Origin: a virus
DNA length: 59,013 nt
Strand: one strand, 5' to 3'
Virus record (IMG/VR): IMGVR_UViG_3300042516_003042
Span: 1-59,013 of that record
In this document: positions 34,469 to 58,897 of the stretch, one piece after another
Layout: every line of letters begins with the position of its first letter
Numbering within the stretch: the first letter of the stretch is position 1
Program-made: the position numbers and the translations under genes
Notes under the pieces: generated by a model
Database searches by the model: none
Seen by the model: the letters and a program-made list of their open reading frames with translations, nothing else
What the model was told of the DNA's origin: nothing

Positions 34469-34482
34469 ATTTTGTAATTTAG

Positions 34483-34879
34483 AGGAGGTGCCGGAAATCG
34501 AATCCGGGTCCTGTCCAGTAATCAATACATCTTTTATTTACAGCATAGGATAATTCAAAGTTTAATCTAACTACTTTAGAATTCCAATAAAGAAGGGGCT
34601 GACTATTATGGGAAGCCAACTTATCCACCATCTAATTTTGAGAAAATTAGCAAAACAAACAACAATTTAACCTATATCTAAAGTTGCTGTAAGGTAGTAG
34701 GCTTCTGTTATTACGCTGCTACAAGCGCATCATTTGTTACAAATGCAATAGCATCTTCAAATGTAAATGCAGACAATTCTGTTGCGTTTATTTTTTGGTT
34801 ACAATTTTTGTTCGGTGTAAATAACCATTCACCGAGCTGAAGATATACTATTAGATGTCAGTCAATACCTGTCACCCCC
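34483..34879 (-). ncRNA. ssrA: tmRNA (ssrA), phage-encoded, 397 nt
   Basis: The 5' end GGGGGTGACAGG and the 3' end CACCTCC form the seven-pair acceptor stem with one G-U. The T arm is CCGGA/TCCGG around TTCGATT. Downstream of the 5' tRNA-like part is an H-type pseudoknot (CGGTG/CACCG interlocked with GGTTA/TAACC at about 34797-34837), the PK1 of tmRNAs. Then comes AAAAAATAAAC directly before the resume codon GCA, almost identical to the E. coli element AAAAAATAGTC-GCA. H2 pairing ACATC/GATGT is also present. CCA is not encoded. tmRNA rescues stalled ribosomes and tags the nascent chain. It follows the 119-residue gene by 11 bp and is probably cut from that transcript. Confidence 0.93.
34711..34785 (-). 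other. tmRNA tag reading frame (24 residues)
   Basis: From the resume GCA at 34785 to TAA-TAA the tag starts ATELSAF and ends TNDALVAA. The terminal LVAA matches the hydrophobic-AA degron type recognised by ClpXP. At 24 residues it is longer than the usual 8-15. Confidence 0.85.
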
Positions 34880-44462: not shown

Positions 44463-45251
44463 TTATAGTGTATTCAATGCTGATAATAAACTATAAGCAT
44501 CCTTTTGGTTAGGGAAAGTGATTCCTAATCTACCTAAGCTACCATCTGGATAAATTCTATACTCTACTTTAACTCCATTAGCAAGAGTTACTGTAACTGT
44601 AGGATAGCTAATCCAATCTTTTCTATTATAAGTATTGATATAAGATCCTGATATGCCTTCTACTATAAAAGCATCGCTATATGTAGCTTTAAGCTTTGCT
44701 ATAGTAGACTCTACAGCTGTCAACTGTTTAGCTTTAGCTTCTTCTTTAGCTTTTTTAGCTGATTCAATCTCTTCTACCTTTTTAATAATGGTTGCTGGAT
44801 TAATAAGCATTTTACGTCTATATGCATAATCTACATCAGGACCCAGAAGAGACATTTTATATCCTTTATCTTCTCCTGACCATTTATCGTATACTATATG
44901 TTTTGATACTTCAATACTGAATGTCTTATAAGTATATAATGCAGTTCTTCTTTCAAATGTCTTAGACCATATTGGATCTGCATCTTCCCAACTATCCTTT
45001 ACCATTTTCTGTGCAGGCCTAGTTCTGATTTCAAAATTCCAACCTGGTAATTTGGGACCGAATACTTTAGCTGCTGCTATTTGTGCGTCATCTTCAGCTA
45101 TTAAAGATGCGATATCTTTTTCAGCAGCAGCAATCTCAGACTGTAGTTCTAATTGTTTTTTCAATTGCTGCTCTTTTTTAGCTAATTCCTCTTGCTCTCT
45201 TTTAATGGTTATCATTTCTAATTCTGCTGGTGTCAATTGTAATTCTGTCAT
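44463..45251 (-). CDS. Coiled-coil protein of unknown function, 262 aa
   Basis: The first ~60 residues are a glutamate/lysine-rich coiled coil (REQEELAKKEQQLKKQLELQ). A middle region has KKAKEEAKAKQLTAVESTIAKL, and the C-terminal 70 residues look folded (YPTVTVTLANGVKVEYRIYPDG). No family recognised. It is transcribed from module F together with the 82-residue gene. Confidence 0.75.
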   Translation of the reverse strand: MTELQLTPAELEMITIKREQEELAKKEQQLKKQLELQSEIAAAEKDIASLIAEDDAQIAAAKVFGPKLPGWNFEIRTRPAQKMVKDSWEDADPIWSKTFERRTALYTYKTFSIEVSKHIVYDKWSGEDKGYKMSLLGPDVDYAYRRKMLINPATIIKKVEEIESAKKAKEEAKAKQLTAVESTIAKLKATYSDAFIVEGISGSYINTYNRKDWISYPTVTVTLANGVKVEYRIYPDGSLGRLGITFPNQKDAYSLLSALNTL

Positions 45252-46770: not shown

Positions 46771-46804
46771 TTGTCAATTTTTATTTGTTAATTAATAATA
46801 TACT

Positions 46805-47370: not shown

Positions 47371-47403
47371 TTTTAAAATTATTATTTGTGAATAAAAACA
47401 ACA

Positions 47404-47498
47404 CATAACAAGGGTTTTTCGTAATAGCCCTATCAAGTGTCGATTTTGTAGTTTAGTTTATACTAAGGGCTACTACGCAAAGCCCCGATACGTTATGC
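47404..47498 (-). repeat. attC-like site G
   Basis: Minus strand: GCATAAC ... AGCCCT, a 30-nt loop, AGGGCTATTACG ... TTGTTATG. The arms align over 26 positions with a four-base surplus in one arm, the asymmetry typical of attC. Confidence 0.7.
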
Positions 47499-47505
47499 TC
47501 CATTG

Positions 47506-47718
47506 CTACATTACCGCTTCGATATGATTGTATATTAATTTCATTACCCAAGCATTTTCAAACTCATACATACCACAAACCGTACACGCCTCGTCTTCGG
47601 TATCGTAATAAATTATCTCACCTTTTTCATTTTTCATAAAGTCCATATTTCTAAGGTCTATGATTACATATTGTCCTTTCATTTCGTTTTCATGGTTTAT
47701 TAAAGTTTTGTTTTTCAT
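47506..47718 (-). CDS. Cassette protein, unknown, 70 aa
   Basis: I start at ATG 47718 (MKNKTLINHENEMKGQYVII); the frame continues to 47817 but through the short site F. Contains YDTEDEACTVCGMYEF, a CxxC pair. No family recognised. Ends 8 bp before attC-like site G. Confidence 0.6.
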   Translation of the reverse strand: MKNKTLINHENEMKGQYVIIDLRNMDFMKNEKGEIIYYDTEDEACTVCGMYEFENAWVMKLIYNHIEAVM

Positions 47719-47759
47719 ATCAAATTTATTTTTAAAGTTAAAGTTTTGTGCTTCGTAAT

Positions 47760-47792
47760 CGCCAACTTCGGTTAGCTGCGAAACGTTAGGCG
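47760..47792 (-). repeat. Short attC-like site F
   Basis: Minus strand CGCCTAACGTTTCG, 8-nt loop, CGAAGTTGGCG. Only 33 bp; the first core site is GCCTAAC, the second GTTGGCG. It follows the stop of the 59-residue gene by 5 bp and may be a worn remnant. Confidence 0.5.
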
Positions 47793-47797
47793 TAATG

Positions 47798-47977
47798 CTA
47801 AGAATGCACTTCGTCATATAATTTTGTTGCGATATTATAGCCCATGCAACTAATCCAACCCGCTAAAAATTTAAGGTCGTTATAGTCAACTGATAGCCAT
47901 TTGCAACCAAATATGAAACATACTATTATAATTAATGCTGTGAAAAATCCTACCATAGTTTTAAATACTGTTTTCAT
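47798..47977 (-). CDS. Cassette membrane protein, 59 aa
   Basis: ATG 47977 (MKTVFKTMVGFFTALIIIVCF) with one transmembrane helix near the N-terminus and a polar end with WISCMGYNIATKLYDEVHS. No family recognised. It starts 24 nt after core site GTTAGGC of site E. Confidence 0.62.
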   Translation of the reverse strand: MKTVFKTMVGFFTALIIIVCFIFGCKWLSVDYNDLKFLAGWISCMGYNIATKLYDEVHS

Positions 47978-48000
47978 AATCATTTGAATTAAAGCACATA

Positions 48001-48131
48001 CGCCTAACAATATGTATAAAATATAGGCGGTTCAGTGCGGTTATTAATATTTCTACTTTCTATTTAGTTTTGTATAGGCGGATAAGGCAGTAGTTCCTAT
48101 TCGCCTACATTTCATACATTTAACGTTATGA
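48001..48131 (-). repeat. attC-like site E
   Basis: Minus strand from TTCATAAC to TTGTTAGGCG, with arms AATGTATGAAATGTAGGCG and CGCCTATATTTTATACAT pairing and a ~75-nt centre. GTTAGGC is a perfect GTTRRRY. The stop codon of the 72-residue gene is inside the first core site. Confidence 0.8.
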
Positions 48132-48344
48132 ACAATGTTTCTTAACAACCTCTATTGCTTCTTTCAATGCTCTAACTTTACCATAGTTCACATTATCATC
48201 AAAATCATCCACCGCATTTTTTTGTGCTTTATTATATTTCGATACCAATTTTTCTAAATCTGCAATAACACTGTTCATAACATCAGATATATTCAAGTTT
48301 TCTTGTGCTTCGTTGAAACGTTTTATGTGTTTTAAATCTTTCAT
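48126..48344 (-). CDS. Helical protein ending in attC-like site E, 72 aa
   Basis: MKDLKHIKRFNEAQENLNISDVMNS followed by a coiled-coil-like region (VIADLEKLVSKYNKAQKNA). No family recognised. Its TAA is part of CATAAC. The gene lies 24 bp after the 91-residue gene without a site between them. Confidence 0.65.
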   Translation of the reverse strand: MKDLKHIKRFNEAQENLNISDVMNSVIADLEKLVSKYNKAQKNAVDDFDDNVNYGKVRALKEAIEVVKKHCS

Positions 48345-48368
48345 CTTCGTATGTTATTTTAGTGTTGC

Positions 48369-48644
48369 TCATGCTTTTGCTATTATTTGATACCTTCTTT
48401 GGCTTTTATGTTCACCCGATGTTTTTGATACAAAATCAGCATCAATAACTATTTCTTTACCATTTTCTAATTTAAAAGTCAACATAGTAGGATTAGCCCA
48501 ATCTTCTTCAATATTTAACAATACTGCATTGTTAAACCACAAATCATCAAGATTTGTAGCATAATTATTCTTAATGTGGTAAGTGTTGCCTTTTTTTAAA
48601 TCTGACGTTTCTAAGTATGACATAGTTTTAAATATTGTTTTCAT
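48369..48644 (-). CDS. Unknown protein, 91 aa
   Basis: MKTIFKTMSYLETSDLKKGNTYHIKNN, then strands (PTMLTFKLENGKEIVIDADFV). Beta-rich, perhaps SH3-like. No family recognised. First gene behind module J, so this part of the array has its own phage-type promoter. Confidence 0.68.
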   Translation of the reverse strand: MKTIFKTMSYLETSDLKKGNTYHIKNNYATNLDDLWFNNAVLLNIEEDWANPTMLTFKLENGKEIVIDADFVSKTSGEHKSQRRYQIIAKA

Positions 48645-48662
48645 ATTATTTAACCTTATACT

Positions 48663-48727
48663 TAAATGTAAGTACTTATTATCGTAAAGACGAATCTTCT
48701 GGTGATTTTTAATACTTTTTAAGATAT
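48663..48727 (-). promoter_or_regulatory. Full promoter module J
   Basis: The -33 site reads TTCG (48691-48694), the weakest of the set; 20-nt spacer, TACATTTA (48663-48670), upstream element at about 48707-48727. Confidence 0.68.
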
Positions 48728-48814
48728 TAAATAAATTTTAATATGATACTCTAGAAATTCAATCTAATTATTTAAGAAATTGTATATAAGAATATTACTA
48801 TGACTCAATCTAGA

Positions 48815-48842
48815 TTAAGGTACATATATATAAGAGTTATAG
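48815..48842 (-). repeat. Shared array element (copy 1)
   Basis: Minus strand TATAACTCTTATATATATGTACC. Its 15-bp core (48825-48839) is identical to the one beside the recombinase at 57940-57954 and follows directly on a core-site-like TAAC that holds the stop of the 72-residue cassette gene. Confidence 0.65.
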
Positions 48843-49055
48843 GGCATTTAAAGCAACCCGAACTTGCTCCCAATATTCTTTATTAATAGGTAATGCTTTT
48901 GAATCTTTATGGTATAAAATAGTTGCATCAATGTTTTTTAGAATTTCATCAACAGCTATCAATCCGCATATTTTAGCAGACTCAAACATCAATGGTTCTT
49001 TTTGAAATTGCATCTTAATTACTATTTCTCTTGCTTTTTCTTCGTAATCAGTCAT
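48837..49055 (-). CDS. Cassette protein of a Bacteroidota phage-type family, 72 aa
   Basis: ATG 49055 (MTDYEEKAREIVIKMQFQKE). The AKICGLIAVDEILKN and YWEQV segments resemble small hypothetical proteins I recall from Bacteroidota phages and plasmids (AKxCALIAVDEIL ... YWQEV). Function unknown. It starts 16 nt after the last core site of site D and ends in the shared element. Confidence 0.7.
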   Translation of the reverse strand: MTDYEEKAREIVIKMQFQKEPLMFESAKICGLIAVDEILKNIDATILYHKDSKALPINKEYWEQVRVALNAL

Positions 49056-49070
49056 TTTGTGTAAAATAAA

Positions 49071-49207
49071 CGCCCTATAACATACGCTATACAAAAGCAG
49101 GGGCGTACTGCTAAAGTGAGCGTTCGTGCTACTATTTGTCATTTGTGTAAGGCTGAAAGGGAGTGCATCTTAACCCCTGCCTTCGTATAGCGTCAGCCGT
49201 TATAAGC
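49071..49207 (-). repeat. attC-like site D
   Basis: Minus strand CTTATAACGGCTGACGC to GTATGTTATAGGGCG. Arms ACGCTATACGAAGGCAGGGG and CCCCTGCTTTTGTATAGCGT pair almost fully, with a two-base surplus next to the core site and a ~70-nt centre. The stop of the 87-residue gene is in TATAAC. Confidence 0.82.
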
Positions 49208-49463
49208 TATTGGTTGATTTTAAGTAATCTTCAATAACTTTTGTGTGTATATGAACTGTGTGGTCTTTCCAAACAACCTTATCTGAAAAATCAACCAACA
49301 GTTCGCTTCGCCTTATAACATCAAATTGGCGTAATGCTTCGTTCTCTGCTAACAAACGATGTATTTCATCAACTTTCTGTTTCAGTTCATTATCAAGTCT
49401 TTCAAAAAGCCATTCATCGCTTTTACCTTGCCAAGTTTGTCTATGTCTTTCTATTGCTTTCAT
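49200..49463 (-). CDS. Cassette coiled-coil protein, 87 aa
   Basis: MKAIERHRQTWQGKSDEWLFERLDNELKQKVDEIHRLLAENE is helical and charged (quoted start MKAIERHRQTWQGKSDEW). The C-terminal part (DKVVWKDHTVHIHTKVIEDYL) looks folded. No family recognised. Its stop lies in the first core site of site D. Confidence 0.7.
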   Translation of the reverse strand: MKAIERHRQTWQGKSDEWLFERLDNELKQKVDEIHRLLAENEALRQFDVIRRSELLVDFSDKVVWKDHTVHIHTKVIEDYLKSTNSL

Positions 49464-49476
49464 ATATTTTATTTTA

Positions 49477-49512
49477 AGTTTCGCACTACGCCAATTTGAG
49501 AAACGTTATGTG
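49477..49512 (-). repeat. Degenerate attC-like site C
   Basis: Minus strand GCACATAACGTTTC ... GTGCGAAAC. GTTTC/GAAAC pair and a first core site CATAAC is present, but no good second core site. Possibly a deletion remnant. Confidence 0.4.
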
Positions 49513-49517
49513 CAAGG

Positions 49518-49697
49518 CTATAACCCTAGTTCATTAACACGTACCCATTCATCAATAGATAGTTCTCTGCTATACAATAAATGTATTTCCCTACCAAGTT
49601 CAATCTCGATAGCCATAAATGCTTCCAAAGAACTTACTTCTGCAAATTGCGTTACATATTTTCCGTCACGCAAAAATGTTAAATGATACCTTTTCAT
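49518..49697 (-). CDS. Cassette protein, unknown, 59 aa
   Basis: ATG 49697 (MKRYHLTFLRDGKYVTQFAE), alpha/beta composition, ends RELSIDEWVRVNELGL. The frame runs on to 49772 through the attC-like site, so I take the internal ATG. No family recognised. Confidence 0.66.
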   Translation of the reverse strand: MKRYHLTFLRDGKYVTQFAEVSSLEAFMAIEIELGREIHLLYSRELSIDEWVRVNELGL

Positions 49698-49734
49698 CGT
49701 TTTCAAATTAAATTTAGTGCTGATAAACCGCCCA

Positions 49735-49828
49735 GCACATAACAGCGGTTTGGCAAAAGCTGCCAGAAACATTGTGCGAAATTTAAACTTTCAGTCATGC
49801 AGCCTTCGCCAAGCCGCAAAACGTTAGC
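49735..49828 (-). repeat. attC-like site B
   Basis: Minus strand TTGCTAACGTTTTGCGGC to CCGCTGTTATGTGC. Arms GCGGCTTGGCGAAGGCTGC and GCAGCTTTTGCCAAACCGC pair with a four-base surplus after the first core site. The stop of the 47-residue gene is in GCTAAC. Confidence 0.85.
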
Positions 49829-49967
49829 AACAATAACCGAGCAGAGTTCTAAACTGTGTTAAGTTTATATTTCCTTGTTTAGTCCATTGCCACAACATAC
49901 CAACTCTATCACTCTTTTCAAGCGTTTCTAATTTTTTAATGCAGTCTTCTAATTTAAAGTCTTTCAT
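49824..49967 (-). CDS. Cassette protein, unknown, 47 aa
   Basis: ATG 49967 (MKDFKLEDCIKKLETLEKSD), helical, ending QFRTLLGYCC. It starts 13 nt after core site GTTAGC of site A and stops inside site B, so gene and sites have the exact spacing of an integron cassette. No family recognised. Confidence 0.66.
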   Translation of the reverse strand: MKDFKLEDCIKKLETLEKSDRVGMLWQWTKQGNINLTQFRTLLGYCC

Positions 49968-49979
49968 AATGTTACTATT

Positions 49980-50069
49980 GCTAACAAGCAATATATGTAA
50001 TTGCCTATTAAGGTTTATACTAATTTTTAATTTTGCGTATGGCAACTACATATATTGCCAACCGTTATG
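49980..50069 (-). repeat. attC-like site A
   Basis: Minus strand CATAACGGTTGGCAATATATG to TTGCTTGTTAGC. Arms GGCAATATATGTAGTTGCC and GGCAATTACATATATTGC pair nearly fully, with a three-base surplus in the first arm and a 30-nt centre. Confidence 0.85.
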
Positions 50070-50074
50070 GTAAA

Positions 50075-50161
50075 GTGGCGGTTGATACTTGGTGTTATCA
50101 TATTTCCAAGTTCCCCCTCTCTGTGGGGAAGTGTCCTTTCGGGCTATATCAATACCGCCAC
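50075..50161 (-). other. Long imperfect hairpin at the promoter end of array 1
   Basis: GTGGCGG at one end pairs with CCGCCAC at the other, TTGATA with TATCAA, and TTCCCC/GGGGAA form the inner stem (50111-50130). No core sites of attC type. It lies between promoter module K and site A and could mark the array start, stabilise the transcript or be an unrelated repeat. Confidence 0.5.
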
Positions 50162-56614: not shown

Positions 56615-57109
56615 TTGAACATAAAGTTTTTACTATTTATACTTATCTGTATAACCTATTTTATGTCACCATTACTTCTATCATTTCTCCTAGCATTCAA
56701 TACAAATACTGATTCGTTAACAACACATCAATTTAGGTTATGGCAAAAGGTATATGACAATAAAAGACTTCATGTAATTAATCATAATATAACTGTGTCT
56801 GGTGTTATACATCATATTGAAAATTCATTTGATGGTGATATTCATATAAAATTAAAGTTAGATTCGGTTAGTTCTCAAAAGGTATATTTAGTTAATAAAA
56901 ATTACACCAAACAAGATTCATGCTTAGTAGCAGAGATAGTTTGTGGACATAGTACAATATTTCCTATCTGCCATATGTTTGACAATCCTATTCTAGTACC
57001 TAAGAAGGGGGATAAAGTTATAGTTACTGGTGCATTTGTTTATGACAAAAGACATAACTGGACTGAGATTCACCCTGTATATAATTTGGAAATTCTGCCT
57101 ATTAAATAG
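56615..57109 (+). CDS. Membrane-anchored or exported protein, OB-fold-like, 164 aa
   Basis: The only rightward gene. Reading from TTG 56615, it begins with a hydrophobic helix (FLLFILICITYFMSPLLLSF), then a folded part with DGDIHIKLKLDSVSSQKVYL, a Cys pair (EIVCGHSTIFPICHM) and the end KKGDKVIVTGAFVYDKRHNW, which looks like the last strands of an OB fold. ATG 56663 is an alternative start inside the helix. Its end overlaps the recombinase stop by 8 bp, tail to tail. Isolated, opposite orientation suggests acquisition as a unit or silent carriage. Confidence 0.72.
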   Translation: MNIKFLLFILICITYFMSPLLLSFLLAFNTNTDSLTTHQFRLWQKVYDNKRLHVINHNITVSGVIHHIENSFDGDIHIKLKLDSVSSQKVYLVNKNYTKQDSCLVAEIVCGHSTIFPICHMFDNPILVPKKGDKVIVTGAFVYDKRHNWTEIHPVYNLEILPIK

Positions 57110-57899
57110 GTAAATTAACAGAAGATAATAATTGATTAGATACATGAGTATATATCTCAGTAGTTTTCGATGATGAATGTCCTGCAATCTTTTGTATTAT
57201 TCGTAAATCAGTTCCGCTTTCTAATAAGTTAGTAAATGATGAATGTCGCAAGGTATGGATTGATGATGTATTGTCAATATATTTCTTATATATTTTCTGG
57301 CAGCTACCTATTGAATATTGGTTTGTAAATTGACCATTAAAGAGGTATTCAATTGGTTTATATTCTTTGAAATAATCTCTTAACAGATTAAGTACATTTG
57401 GCGAAAGAGGAACTATTCTGTCTTTTCTACCTTTTGCATTTTTGATATGAATAAGCATTCTTTTTGAATCAATATCTTCAATTTTTAGGTTAACAATTTC
57501 AGATACTCTTAATCCAACTGAATAAGTTAGGGTAAGAATTGCTTTGTGTTTAAGATTTTCAATTTGATTTAGTTTTTGTTTTATAAACTCACCATCAATC
57601 ACTCTGGGTAATTTCTTTTCTGATTTTGGTCTCTCTATTTTCGTTAAGTGTATATCTTTTTTATTTAAAATATATTTAGCAAAAAGTTTTAGAGCACCTA
57701 TATATTGGTTTTGTTGGCTGCATGATGTGTAAGGATATTTTTCAAGAAACGATACTATTTGTTGTGTTCTAATTTGGTATGGGTCTTTTATCCCACCATA
57801 TTCAATAAAATTTTTTAAATATGATGTATATAAATTTATACTACTCTGAGAATAGTTTTTATATCTTAATTTTTCTTGAAAATTTTTAAGAACTTGCAT
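57102..57899 (-). CDS. Tyrosine recombinase (XerC/D-type integrase), 265 aa
   Basis: An N-terminal SAM-like core-binding domain (LRYKNYSQSSINLYTSYLKN) and a catalytic domain with a complete active site: Arg131 (GLRVSEI), Lys156 region (NAKGRKDR), His215 and Arg218 (HTLRHS), His241 (GHSS) and Tyr250 (EIYTHV). It resembles integron integrases in the N-terminus but lacks the extra helix insertion that marks IntI, and is shorter (265 against about 320-340). It lies at the end of cassette array 2, its start 2 nt after the array end region, and reads in the same direction as the cassette genes. It may move the cassettes, resolve the genome or integrate the phage. Confidence 0.9.
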   Translation of the reverse strand: MQVLKNFQEKLRYKNYSQSSINLYTSYLKNFIEYGGIKDPYQIRTQQIVSFLEKYPYTSCSQQNQYIGALKLFAKYILNKKDIHLTKIERPKSEKKLPRVIDGEFIKQKLNQIENLKHKAILTLTYSVGLRVSEIVNLKIEDIDSKRMLIHIKNAKGRKDRIVPLSPNVLNLLRDYFKEYKPIEYLFNGQFTNQYSIGSCQKIYKKYIDNTSSIHTLRHSSFTNLLESGTDLRIIQKIAGHSSSKTTEIYTHVSNQLLSSVNLPI

Positions 57900-57963: not shown

Positions 57964-58218
57964 TTACTCGACATCATCACTATAATCAATTTCAACCTTA
58001 TAACCCAAATGCTCTAATACTTGCCTAAGTATTGTTTCAGCATCTTGGTTATGACAAGGCAATTCAATATCATTAACGGTTGTAATTGTTCCGTAATTAT
58101 AGCAACATCCATCACCACAGCTATATCCGTATTCGTGCAGTTTGACCTTCAAAACACTACCGCTAACACTGTATTGCTGCAATAGCGGCTTGAAGTCATT
58201 AATTTCATCTTCGTGCAT
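57964..58218 (-). CDS. Cassette protein, Cys-rich loop, 84 aa
   Basis: MHEDEINDFKPLLQQYSVSGS, then YGYSCGDGCCYNYGTITTV and LPCHNQDAETILRQVLEHLG. Acidic overall; the CGDGCC segment could bind metal or form disulfides. No family recognised. It starts 20 nt after site J and stops 3 nt before the array-end core site. Confidence 0.7.
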   Translation of the reverse strand: MHEDEINDFKPLLQQYSVSGSVLKVKLHEYGYSCGDGCCYNYGTITTVNDIELPCHNQDAETILRQVLEHLGYKVEIDYSDDVE

Positions 58219-58238
58219 ATATTAAACTTTTATCTGTT

Positions 58239-58294
58239 ATTCAACTTTAGTTCTTCGATTGCCGCTACTGACAGCAATACTTTTACGTTAGCGG
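58239..58294 (-). repeat. attC-like site J
   Basis: Minus strand CCGCTAACGTAAAAGTATTGC, short loop, GCAATCGAAG ... AAGTTGAAT. 56 bp. GTTGAAT fits GTTRRRY. The stop codon of the 79-residue gene is in CGCTAACG. Confidence 0.7.
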
Positions 58295-58527
58295 AAATTC
58301 TTTATCCGTTGCTCCCACACCTTTGACTGTTTATACCTTGCATACTTTCTGCTCGTTTTCCAAGCAAAGTATTTTCCTGAAAGTTCTTGCCCCCAATCCC
58401 AACCAATACAAGAAGCCCACCAACTACTTCTAATTTCGTAATCCAAGAAAACGGATAAAAAACTATCCGCTAACACGGGTTTTGTGCCATTGGCGGTTTC
58501 GTTTTTCAATTTATCATTTGTACTCAT
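58288..58527 (-). CDS. Cassette protein whose start lies in an attC-like loop, 79 aa
   Basis: ATG 58527 (MSTNDKLKNETANGTKPVLA) is in the loop of site I and the frame reads through its second core site (VLA) into a Trp- and Lys-rich body (SSWWASCIGWDWGQELSGKY). There is no other ATG in the frame. The body has no recognised family. Either the attC supplies the start or the body uses a non-ATG start. Confidence 0.55.
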   Translation of the reverse strand: MSTNDKLKNETANGTKPVLADSFLSVFLDYEIRSSWWASCIGWDWGQELSGKYFAWKTSRKYARYKQSKVWEQRIKNFR

Positions 58528-58601
58528 ATCAAGTTTTGTTTTTTAATTTAACATTTGTGGTTTAATTCGCCAACGGACACAAAGCCCGAAAACGTTAGCG
58601 G
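58467..58601 (-). repeat. attC-like site I
   Basis: Minus strand CCGCTAACGTTTTCGGGC ... CGTTGGCG and CGCCAATGGCACAAAACCCG ... GTTAGCGG. Outer eight bases are perfect inverted copies; one arm has five surplus bases near its core site; the 75-nt centre contains a start codon. Confidence 0.88.
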
Positions 58602-58606
58602 TAATG

Positions 58607-58831
58607 CTAAAACAACAAGTCAATAGTTTTCTTATCATAATATCGTACCGTGTTTTTACTTCCACAATTACCACATTCATCATTAAAAGGTATATTACAC
58701 CCTTCCATTCCACAATCCTTACACCAAGTAAAAACACTATGTATGTTCTTACCAACAAGTTCTTTTTCCCAAGCACTACCGCTAACAAAGTATAAGCGTA
58801 ATGCTTTTATCCATTTAATAAAGTTTTTCAT
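58607..58831 (-). CDS. Cassette zinc-ribbon protein whose start lies in an attC-like loop, 74 aa
   Basis: ATG 58831 (MKNFIKWIKALRLYFVSGSA) lies in the loop of site H and the frame crosses its second core site (VSG). The body carries two CxxC-type pairs (CKDCGMEGC and CGNCG), a zinc-ribbon pattern. A TAnnTTTG sequence (TAAATTTG) sits upstream of the ATG within the same loop, so the site may bring its own promoter. Stop 5 nt before site I. Confidence 0.62.
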   Translation of the reverse strand: MKNFIKWIKALRLYFVSGSAWEKELVGKNIHSVFTWCKDCGMEGCNIPFNDECGNCGSKNTVRYYDKKTIDLLF

Positions 58832-58897
58832 ATATTTTAAGTTTTCGTTTTCAAATTTAACTATTTGTAAGCACTACGCTTATACCCAACCGTTATG
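58779..58897 (-). repeat. attC-like site H
   Basis: Minus strand CATAACGGTTGGGTATAAGCG ... and CGCTTATACTTTGTTAGCGG. Arms GTATAAGCGTAGTGC and GCATTACGCTTATAC pair with one mismatch; three surplus bases near the first core site; ~55-nt centre with TAAATTTG and an ATG. Confidence 0.85.

Follow-up and report, generated by a model that had tools for sequence, protein, structure and literature searches.

The phage sequence considered here is the IMG/VR virus record IMGVR_UViG_3300042516_003042, which was analysed over its whole length of 59,013 nucleotides (nt) and is called the window below. Genes for baseplate proteins, a head-maturation protease and an endolysin, together with a transfer-messenger RNA (tmRNA), identify it as a phage, and the company kept by the relatives of its recombinase suggests that the host is probably a member of the Bacteroidota. 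Two regions of the window, array 1 and array 2, consist of short genes that alternate with palindromes of the attC type, as in the cassette arrays of integrons, the elements that spread antibiotic-resistance genes. The original prediction on this DNA had described array 1. It had overlooked a phage integrase gene with its attI site at 57.1-57.95 kb, as well as an orphan attI in array 1, the inversion of the cassette genes and the spread of such systems over dozens of large phages, all of which are described here.

Recombinase gene, attI sites and cassettes in the window

All features of the locus are on the minus strand. The integrase gene (57102-57899) encodes a XerA-like tyrosine recombinase of 265 residues, recognised from its catalytic residues, from the spacing between the catalytic lysine and the HxLRH motif and from its place in a tree, and it lies on the same strand as array 2, which is found directly upstream. 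At the border between the two is the attI site TAACTCTTATATATA (57954-57940). This motif is common to 67 phage integrases (consensus TAACTATTATATATA), about 40-45 nt 5' of the start codon; on its left stands the terminal part of the cassette that is last in the given locus, and its right side is fixed phage sequence.

Sites of the attC type were located with a detector of our own, which looks for TAAC, a spacer of 3-7 nt, paired arms, a spacer of 0-4 nt and GTTA. Six sites in array 1 (47406-50067) and three in array 2 (58.2-58.9 kb) scored 17.2-21.1; when the whole 59-kb window was dinucleotide-shuffled six times, the best false match scored 14.7. Additionally, an Infernal model was built from an ungapped alignment of 27 attC sites taken exclusively from Bacteroidota chromosomes (pairing 89% against 63% in shuffled sequence; covariation 0.62 against 0.17). 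With default filters the model gave the correct set of sites, and with the filters off it fitted the long-loop sites poorly. It matched six sites of the window, all on the minus strand, at E-values from 1e-15 to 3.4e-7 (the next match had an E-value of 0.59), five of them in array 1. Rfam at gathering thresholds gave no attC match. The alternation of palindromes and small open reading frames (ORFs) that had been predicted for array 1 is thus confirmed by the detector, the shuffles and the covariance model; the sites have paired arms, unpaired spacers and R-box ends, and there is about one gene per attC.

Reading away from attI, array 2 comprises genes of 84 residues (57964-58218), 79 residues (58288-58527) and 74 residues (58607-58831). 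The corresponding attC sites are at 58164-58290 (detector score 18.7), 58471-58597 (18.1; Infernal match 58465-58605, 53 bits, 1.2e-12) and 58783-58895 (17.8), and the array goes on to the end of the window (59013). Array 1 falls into two parts. In gene direction, array 1a lies downstream of a repeated promoter-like module of 102 nt (50292-50191). Its first attC (50067-49982; score 19.1; match 49976-50075, 38 bits) is followed by a gene of 47 residues (49967-49824), and the second (49826-49740; 17.8; match 49734-49834, 64 bits, 1e-15), the top match of the bacterial model, by a gene of 59 residues (49697-49518). The third, a long site of 193 nt (49508-49316; 17.6), has its 3' arm within the gene that it precedes (87 residues, 49463-49200), and the fourth (49202-49078; 21.1; match 49072-49210, 42.5 bits) precedes a gene of 72 or 101 residues (49142-48837), whose frame is open from an ATG in the attC loop. 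Array 1a ends at a second copy of the attI motif (48839-48825), which has no adjoining integrase and is followed by another copy of the promoter-like module (48747-48646). A gene of 91 residues (48644-48369) leads on to array 1b, with genes of 72 residues (48344-48126), 59 residues (47977-47798), 63 residues (47697-47506) and, as the last cassette gene, 62 residues (47370-47182). These are separated by an attC at 48128-48005 (17.4; match 47999-48136, 33.7 bits, 3.4e-7), a degenerate or deleted attC at 47796-47757 (11.4 bits, E-value 0.59) and an attC at 47495-47406 (17.2; match 47400-47503, 42 bits). The cassette spacing described in the original prediction is borne out: stop codons lie at the first core site and several genes start 14-42 nt past the second, but some genes start inside an attC (those at 49463, 49142, 58218, 58527 and 58831).

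The 102-nt module, with AATACTTTTTAAGATAT as its core, has four copies in the window (at 46788, 47109, 48646 and 50191), which are probably phage promoters. A strong inverted repeat without core sites (GGCGGTATTGATA..TATCAACCGCC, 50090-50161) lies between the module and the first attC of array 1. A megablast search of the array region returned a single match of 51 nt and nothing else: this stretch (49697-49747), the 5' leader of the gene at 49697-49518, is 98% identical to one in the huge phage LR745206.1 (634,780 bp; L002:3001-3051), which likewise has inverted cassettes. The 20-nt core of this leader is present in 47 viral stretches. An ORF at 49698-49826 begins in the attC loop (MTESLNFAQCFWQLLPNRCYVLGGLSALNLI) and stops 5 nt 5' of the gene start; LR745206.1 has a matching leader, and translational coupling is possible.

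Recombinase clade, cassette orientation and cassette exchange

The catalytic residues R131, K156, H215, R218, H241 and Y250 are invariant across 32 aligned members of the recombinase family. Against the phage recombinase, TIGR02249 scored 153.5 bits (cut-off 265) with positions 182-253 unmatched, and NF040815, the XerA equivalog, scored 184.9 bits (cut-off 220); XerC and XerD were also under cut-off. The distance from the catalytic lysine motif to HxLRH is 60-61 residues in the phage proteins and 60-66 in their Bacteroidota relatives, as against 73 in host Xer and 107 in IntI. The recombinase lacks the IntI-specific domain and is not a canonical IntI. A maximum-likelihood tree, with some long terminal branches and a bootstrap that had not entirely converged, places the phage proteins together in a single clade (100/100), which includes two rows from bacterial bins (L132 and L153). 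This clade stands next to a Bacteroidota clade (100/99); IntI is separate (100/100), and host Xer proteins are apart from all three (100/100). The best PDB matches were archaeal Xer/XerA and IntI4. Short TnpF-like recombinases on plasmids of Acinetobacter (H50-H63) match residues 59-265 of the phage integrase at about 50% identity.

For viral relatives, the best 80 of at least 183 stretches were taken (contigs up to 362 kb, 54-88% identity). attC sites were found upstream of the recombinase in 47 of the 51 non-redundant loci with more than 600 nt of upstream sequence. There were 207 sites in 328 kb upstream against 4 in 474 kb downstream, with one on the other strand only, and shuffled sequence (1.09 Mb) gave zero detector matches. 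The regions surrounding the integrase genes of phages Freya, Ingeline, Leef and Jenst, whose products are 29-38% identical to the recombinase, contained 0, 0, 1 and 0 sites, respectively. In nearly all loci the arrays stop exactly at the TAAC of an attI-like site, as array 2 does beside the integrase gene of the window. L118 and L131 have additional attI copies, some of them located where an array ends.

In canonical integrons the top strand of attC reads TAACA...CGTTA. In the phages, attC read in gene direction is TAACG...TGTTA, which is the canonical bottom, recombinogenic strand, as checked on canonical integrons fetched as controls (regions of 12-20 kb from gamma-proteobacteria and Bacteroidota). 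In these IntI controls most detected attC sites are upstream of intI and oriented as in the phages, and the genes lie on the opposite strand in 13 of 14 intervals. Phage cassette genes were found on the attC strand in 223 of 228 intervals (5 opposite), and of 311 phage sites, 280 have the more favourable folding energy on the TAACG strand. Hence the phage layout is canonical for integrase and attC, with the genes reversed: every gene has its attC on the 5' side and reads toward attI and the integrase. The canonical arrangement, with attC 3' of the gene and expression from a promoter on the attI side, is absent. In canonical integrons the choice of strand normally secures expression from the cassette promoter Pc (PMC8946536). 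As the phage cassettes are inverted, expression would have to come from the other end, which fits the promoter-like module upstream of array 1a.

The orientation also settles where a cassette begins. The original prediction had placed the boundary at the second core site; with boundaries at this downstream site, homology blocks consist of a common attC and leader with differing genes. The block boundaries make sense once TAACG...TGTTA is read as the canonical bottom strand: attC being reversed with respect to the gene, the boundary is the core site that comes first when reading along the gene, TAA↓C. Among blocks of at least 260 nt common to different phages, 16 of 30 ends lie within 12 nt of TAA↓C, as compared with about 2% expected at random, and 0 of 30 lie at the other end of attC (G↓TTA). 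One cassette common to L053 and L068 is 100% identical over 315 nt, from TAAC to TAAC, between unrelated neighbours. L062 and L073 have backbones downstream of the array that are 97.2% identical; their arrays show no difference over 1828 nt, up to a TAA↓C at which the divergence precisely begins, and a cassette block of 960 nt that is about 2.4 kb from the integrase in L062 adjoins attI in L073. To judge from this comparison of related phages, the difference is natural cassette shuffling beside the integrase, with breakpoints at G↓TT of the recombinogenic site. The proposal that the cassettes belong to the phage agrees with this result, the related phages having junctions at the core site.

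Explanations for the arrays

On anatomy and natural junctions, the phage very probably carries a complete integron, with an integrase that is not IntI and with inverted cassettes. The XerA-like recombinase would take the role of integron integrase and recombine folded, single-stranded attC hairpins with the attI TAACTnTTATATATA located just before the integrase gene itself, with cleavage at TAA↓C (G↓TTA in canonical terms, read on the opposite strand). A cassette would consist of TAA↓C, the attC and the gene, up to the next TAA, the attC often supplying the leader or the start codon of its own gene. New cassettes would enter beside the integrase, and an inserted gene would read toward attI and the integrase, in the direction of phage transcription, which would start from promoter modules on the distal side, in the manner of an operon. 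The same integrase would probably also serve, in trans, the second array 7 kb away through the orphan attI.

It may be argued that the arrays are passive clusters of attC sites lacking integron integrases (CALINs), picked up from bacterial integrons and moved by a host IntI. IntI1 can recombine phage attC sites (PMC9892861), array 1 has no integrase beside it and would be called a CALIN by IntI-based tools, and bona fide IntI is present in 84 of 297 sampled Bacteroidota genomes. However, array 2 adjoins a recombinase whose clade has arrays in 47 of 51 loci, together with a conserved attI, and the systematic inversion relative to bacterial cassettes points to a separate pool; tblastn of 215 phage cassette proteins against the bacterial loci examined gave only 5 matches. 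We regard passive acquisition as unlikely. A still smaller chance is given to the recombinase being a normal phage integrase, or a resolvase of the Xer type, whose attachment site lies immediately upstream and beside which the arrays are found by coincidence. The recombinase is indeed XerA-like in sequence and fold, and many phages have attP beside int. Such coincidence is difficult to reconcile with arrays that end exactly at the TAAC of attI in nearly all loci, with the linkage and shuffle controls, with chromosomal relatives in Bacteroidota that also have attI and attC arrays, and with the lack of arrays at other phage integrases. The hairpins could also be regulatory leaders at the 5' end of small phage genes, or their terminators, considering that they lie 5' of the gene, often hold its start codon and in some cases open a leader ORF reaching to the gene start. 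As the sole explanation this is the least likely of all, since homology between phages breaks at TAA↓C and a bacterial attC model matches the hairpins strand-specifically; a double role in recombination and as leader is possible.

Several observations weigh against an integron run by this recombinase. The attC detector and the orientation convention are our own, and their check on canonical integrons covered a modest set. The link to arrays could in principle arise if the recombinase only had its attI in common with a host integrase that acts in trans, and the AlphaFold2 (AF2) model is poor at the catalytic tyrosine (predicted local distance difference test below 50, residues 243-255). Two attI matches with at most one mismatch occur in 2% of shuffles; the orphan attI is only suggestive, and the pair being only modestly unlikely, its use in trans is put forward as a proposal. 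Starting points of the shared blocks are near TAA↓C in only 4 of 41 cases, a poorer fit explained by the many blocks that have their start within a gene or at the edge of a locus. Start codons lie within attC modestly more often than in the antisense control (33% vs 18%, p=0.04), and the idea of the start codon in attC as a strong special feature was downgraded accordingly. Furthermore, the window stops inside array 2.

Concerning cargo, known families account for a small share of the 145 phage cassette proteins scanned and include DNA methyltransferases, RNA ligase, exonucleases, YopX and dual-specificity phosphatase; the window's own cassette proteins gave no significant Pfam match. The benefit to the phage may be the swapping of small counter-defence and takeover genes. 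Elsewhere in the window, the tmRNA (34482-34879) has a complete tag and tRNA genes nearby, a DUF805 RNA motif (RF03081; 56501-56565) occurs, in a phage, immediately 5' of a DUF805 gene, and no viral relatives were found for the protein encoded at 44463-45251.

Chromosomal relatives and known integron systems

XerA-like relatives with 40-52% identity are common in Bacteroidota, being present in 83 of 297 sampled genomes (E-value ≤ 1e-60). attC sites were detected near them in 30 of 80 fetched loci, all downstream and nearly all on the opposite detector strand, and none upstream in the 80 loci; genes lie opposite the attC strand in 29 of 32 intervals (3 same). About 104 nt 3' of the stop codon these genes have a conserved inverted repeat ending in TATATACnA↓GTTA, evidently their attI, the right half of which resembles the phage attI read backwards. 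The Bacteroidota loci (L132-L211) are apparently complete integrons without IntI, with canonical attC arrays downstream. IntegronFinder 2.0 reported hardly any complete integrons in Bacteroidetes (PMC9024848), a scarcity to be expected if XerA-like integrons were missed.

We consider it likely that both groups belong to a large unrecognised class of integrons without the IntI-specific domain. The Bacteroidota branch would have attI after the integrase and canonical cassettes; the large-phage branch would have attI before the integrase, inverted cassettes with an attC leader and several attI copies per genome, in a cassette economy apart from that of bacteria. The accepted defining feature of integron integrases, and the basis of IntegronFinder, is the IntI-specific domain around patch III (PMC9668308); because searches use this domain, the phage systems are invisible as integrons and appear at best as CALINs. 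If the proposal is correct, phages own a gene-capture platform for accessory genes, among them DNA methyltransferases, RNA ligase, exonucleases and small proteins of unknown function, which would bear on phage-host arms races and on the genome assembly of huge phages. It would offer a natural test of whether recombination of single-stranded attC hairpins requires the IntI-specific domain. The inverted cassettes show that the orientation of attC and that of the gene are not tied to each other where expression starts on the distal side. The origin of IntI could be approached through possible domain-less relatives. XerA-like recombinases of Nitrospirota/Nitrospinota and one unassigned source (L140, L174, L188 and L209) group with IntI (94/92) and are possibly such relatives near that origin.

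A phage array of attC sites is not in itself new, contrary to what the original prediction had supposed. Qi et al. (2023) described 17 phage CALINs, and IntI1 recombined 5 of the 6 sites put to the test (PMC9892861). Their attC clusters resemble the present ones in residing in phage genomes; however, they were found in virulent phages and have no integrase, whereas here a dedicated phage integrase clade and attI accompany the arrays, and inversion is the rule. The Polaribacter phages P12002S and P12002L (L297 and L304) have unusually long attC-like sites of about 201-205 nt, which according to the detector are on the gene strand as in the present system; the parts of these phages that were examined contain no recombinase relative. 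As far as is known, a phage integrase clade without the IntI domain, with a conserved attI, systematic inversion and chromosomal sister systems, is new. No account of integron integrases lacking the IntI domain, of the Bacteroidota systems or of inverted phage cassettes was found in the literature, with priority uncertain, as preprints and most subscription papers were outside the scope of the search.

The integrons of Treponema (PMC3607928) also have an atypical orientation of the integrase relative to the cassettes. They possess a true intI, transcribed toward attI with the cassettes beyond, a layout similar to that of the XerA-like arrays in Bacteroidota. The phages have attI before the integrase, and their cassettes point to it. 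With XerA, XerC and XerD the phage recombinase shares sequence, fold and the lack of the IntI insertion, but it is linked to attC arrays and belongs to a clade apart from host Xer. As in canonical integrons, the phage system has attC hairpins, an attI beside the integrase gene and the G↓TTA boundary, and its array extends from attI away from the 5' end of the integrase gene with the same attC orientation. It differs in the absence of the IntI-specific domain, in genes inverted relative to attC, in the lack of a promoter layout on the attI side, in being phage-borne and in having extra copies of attI. By function it would be an integron; as a family member it is not a canonical IntI integron, two defining features being absent.

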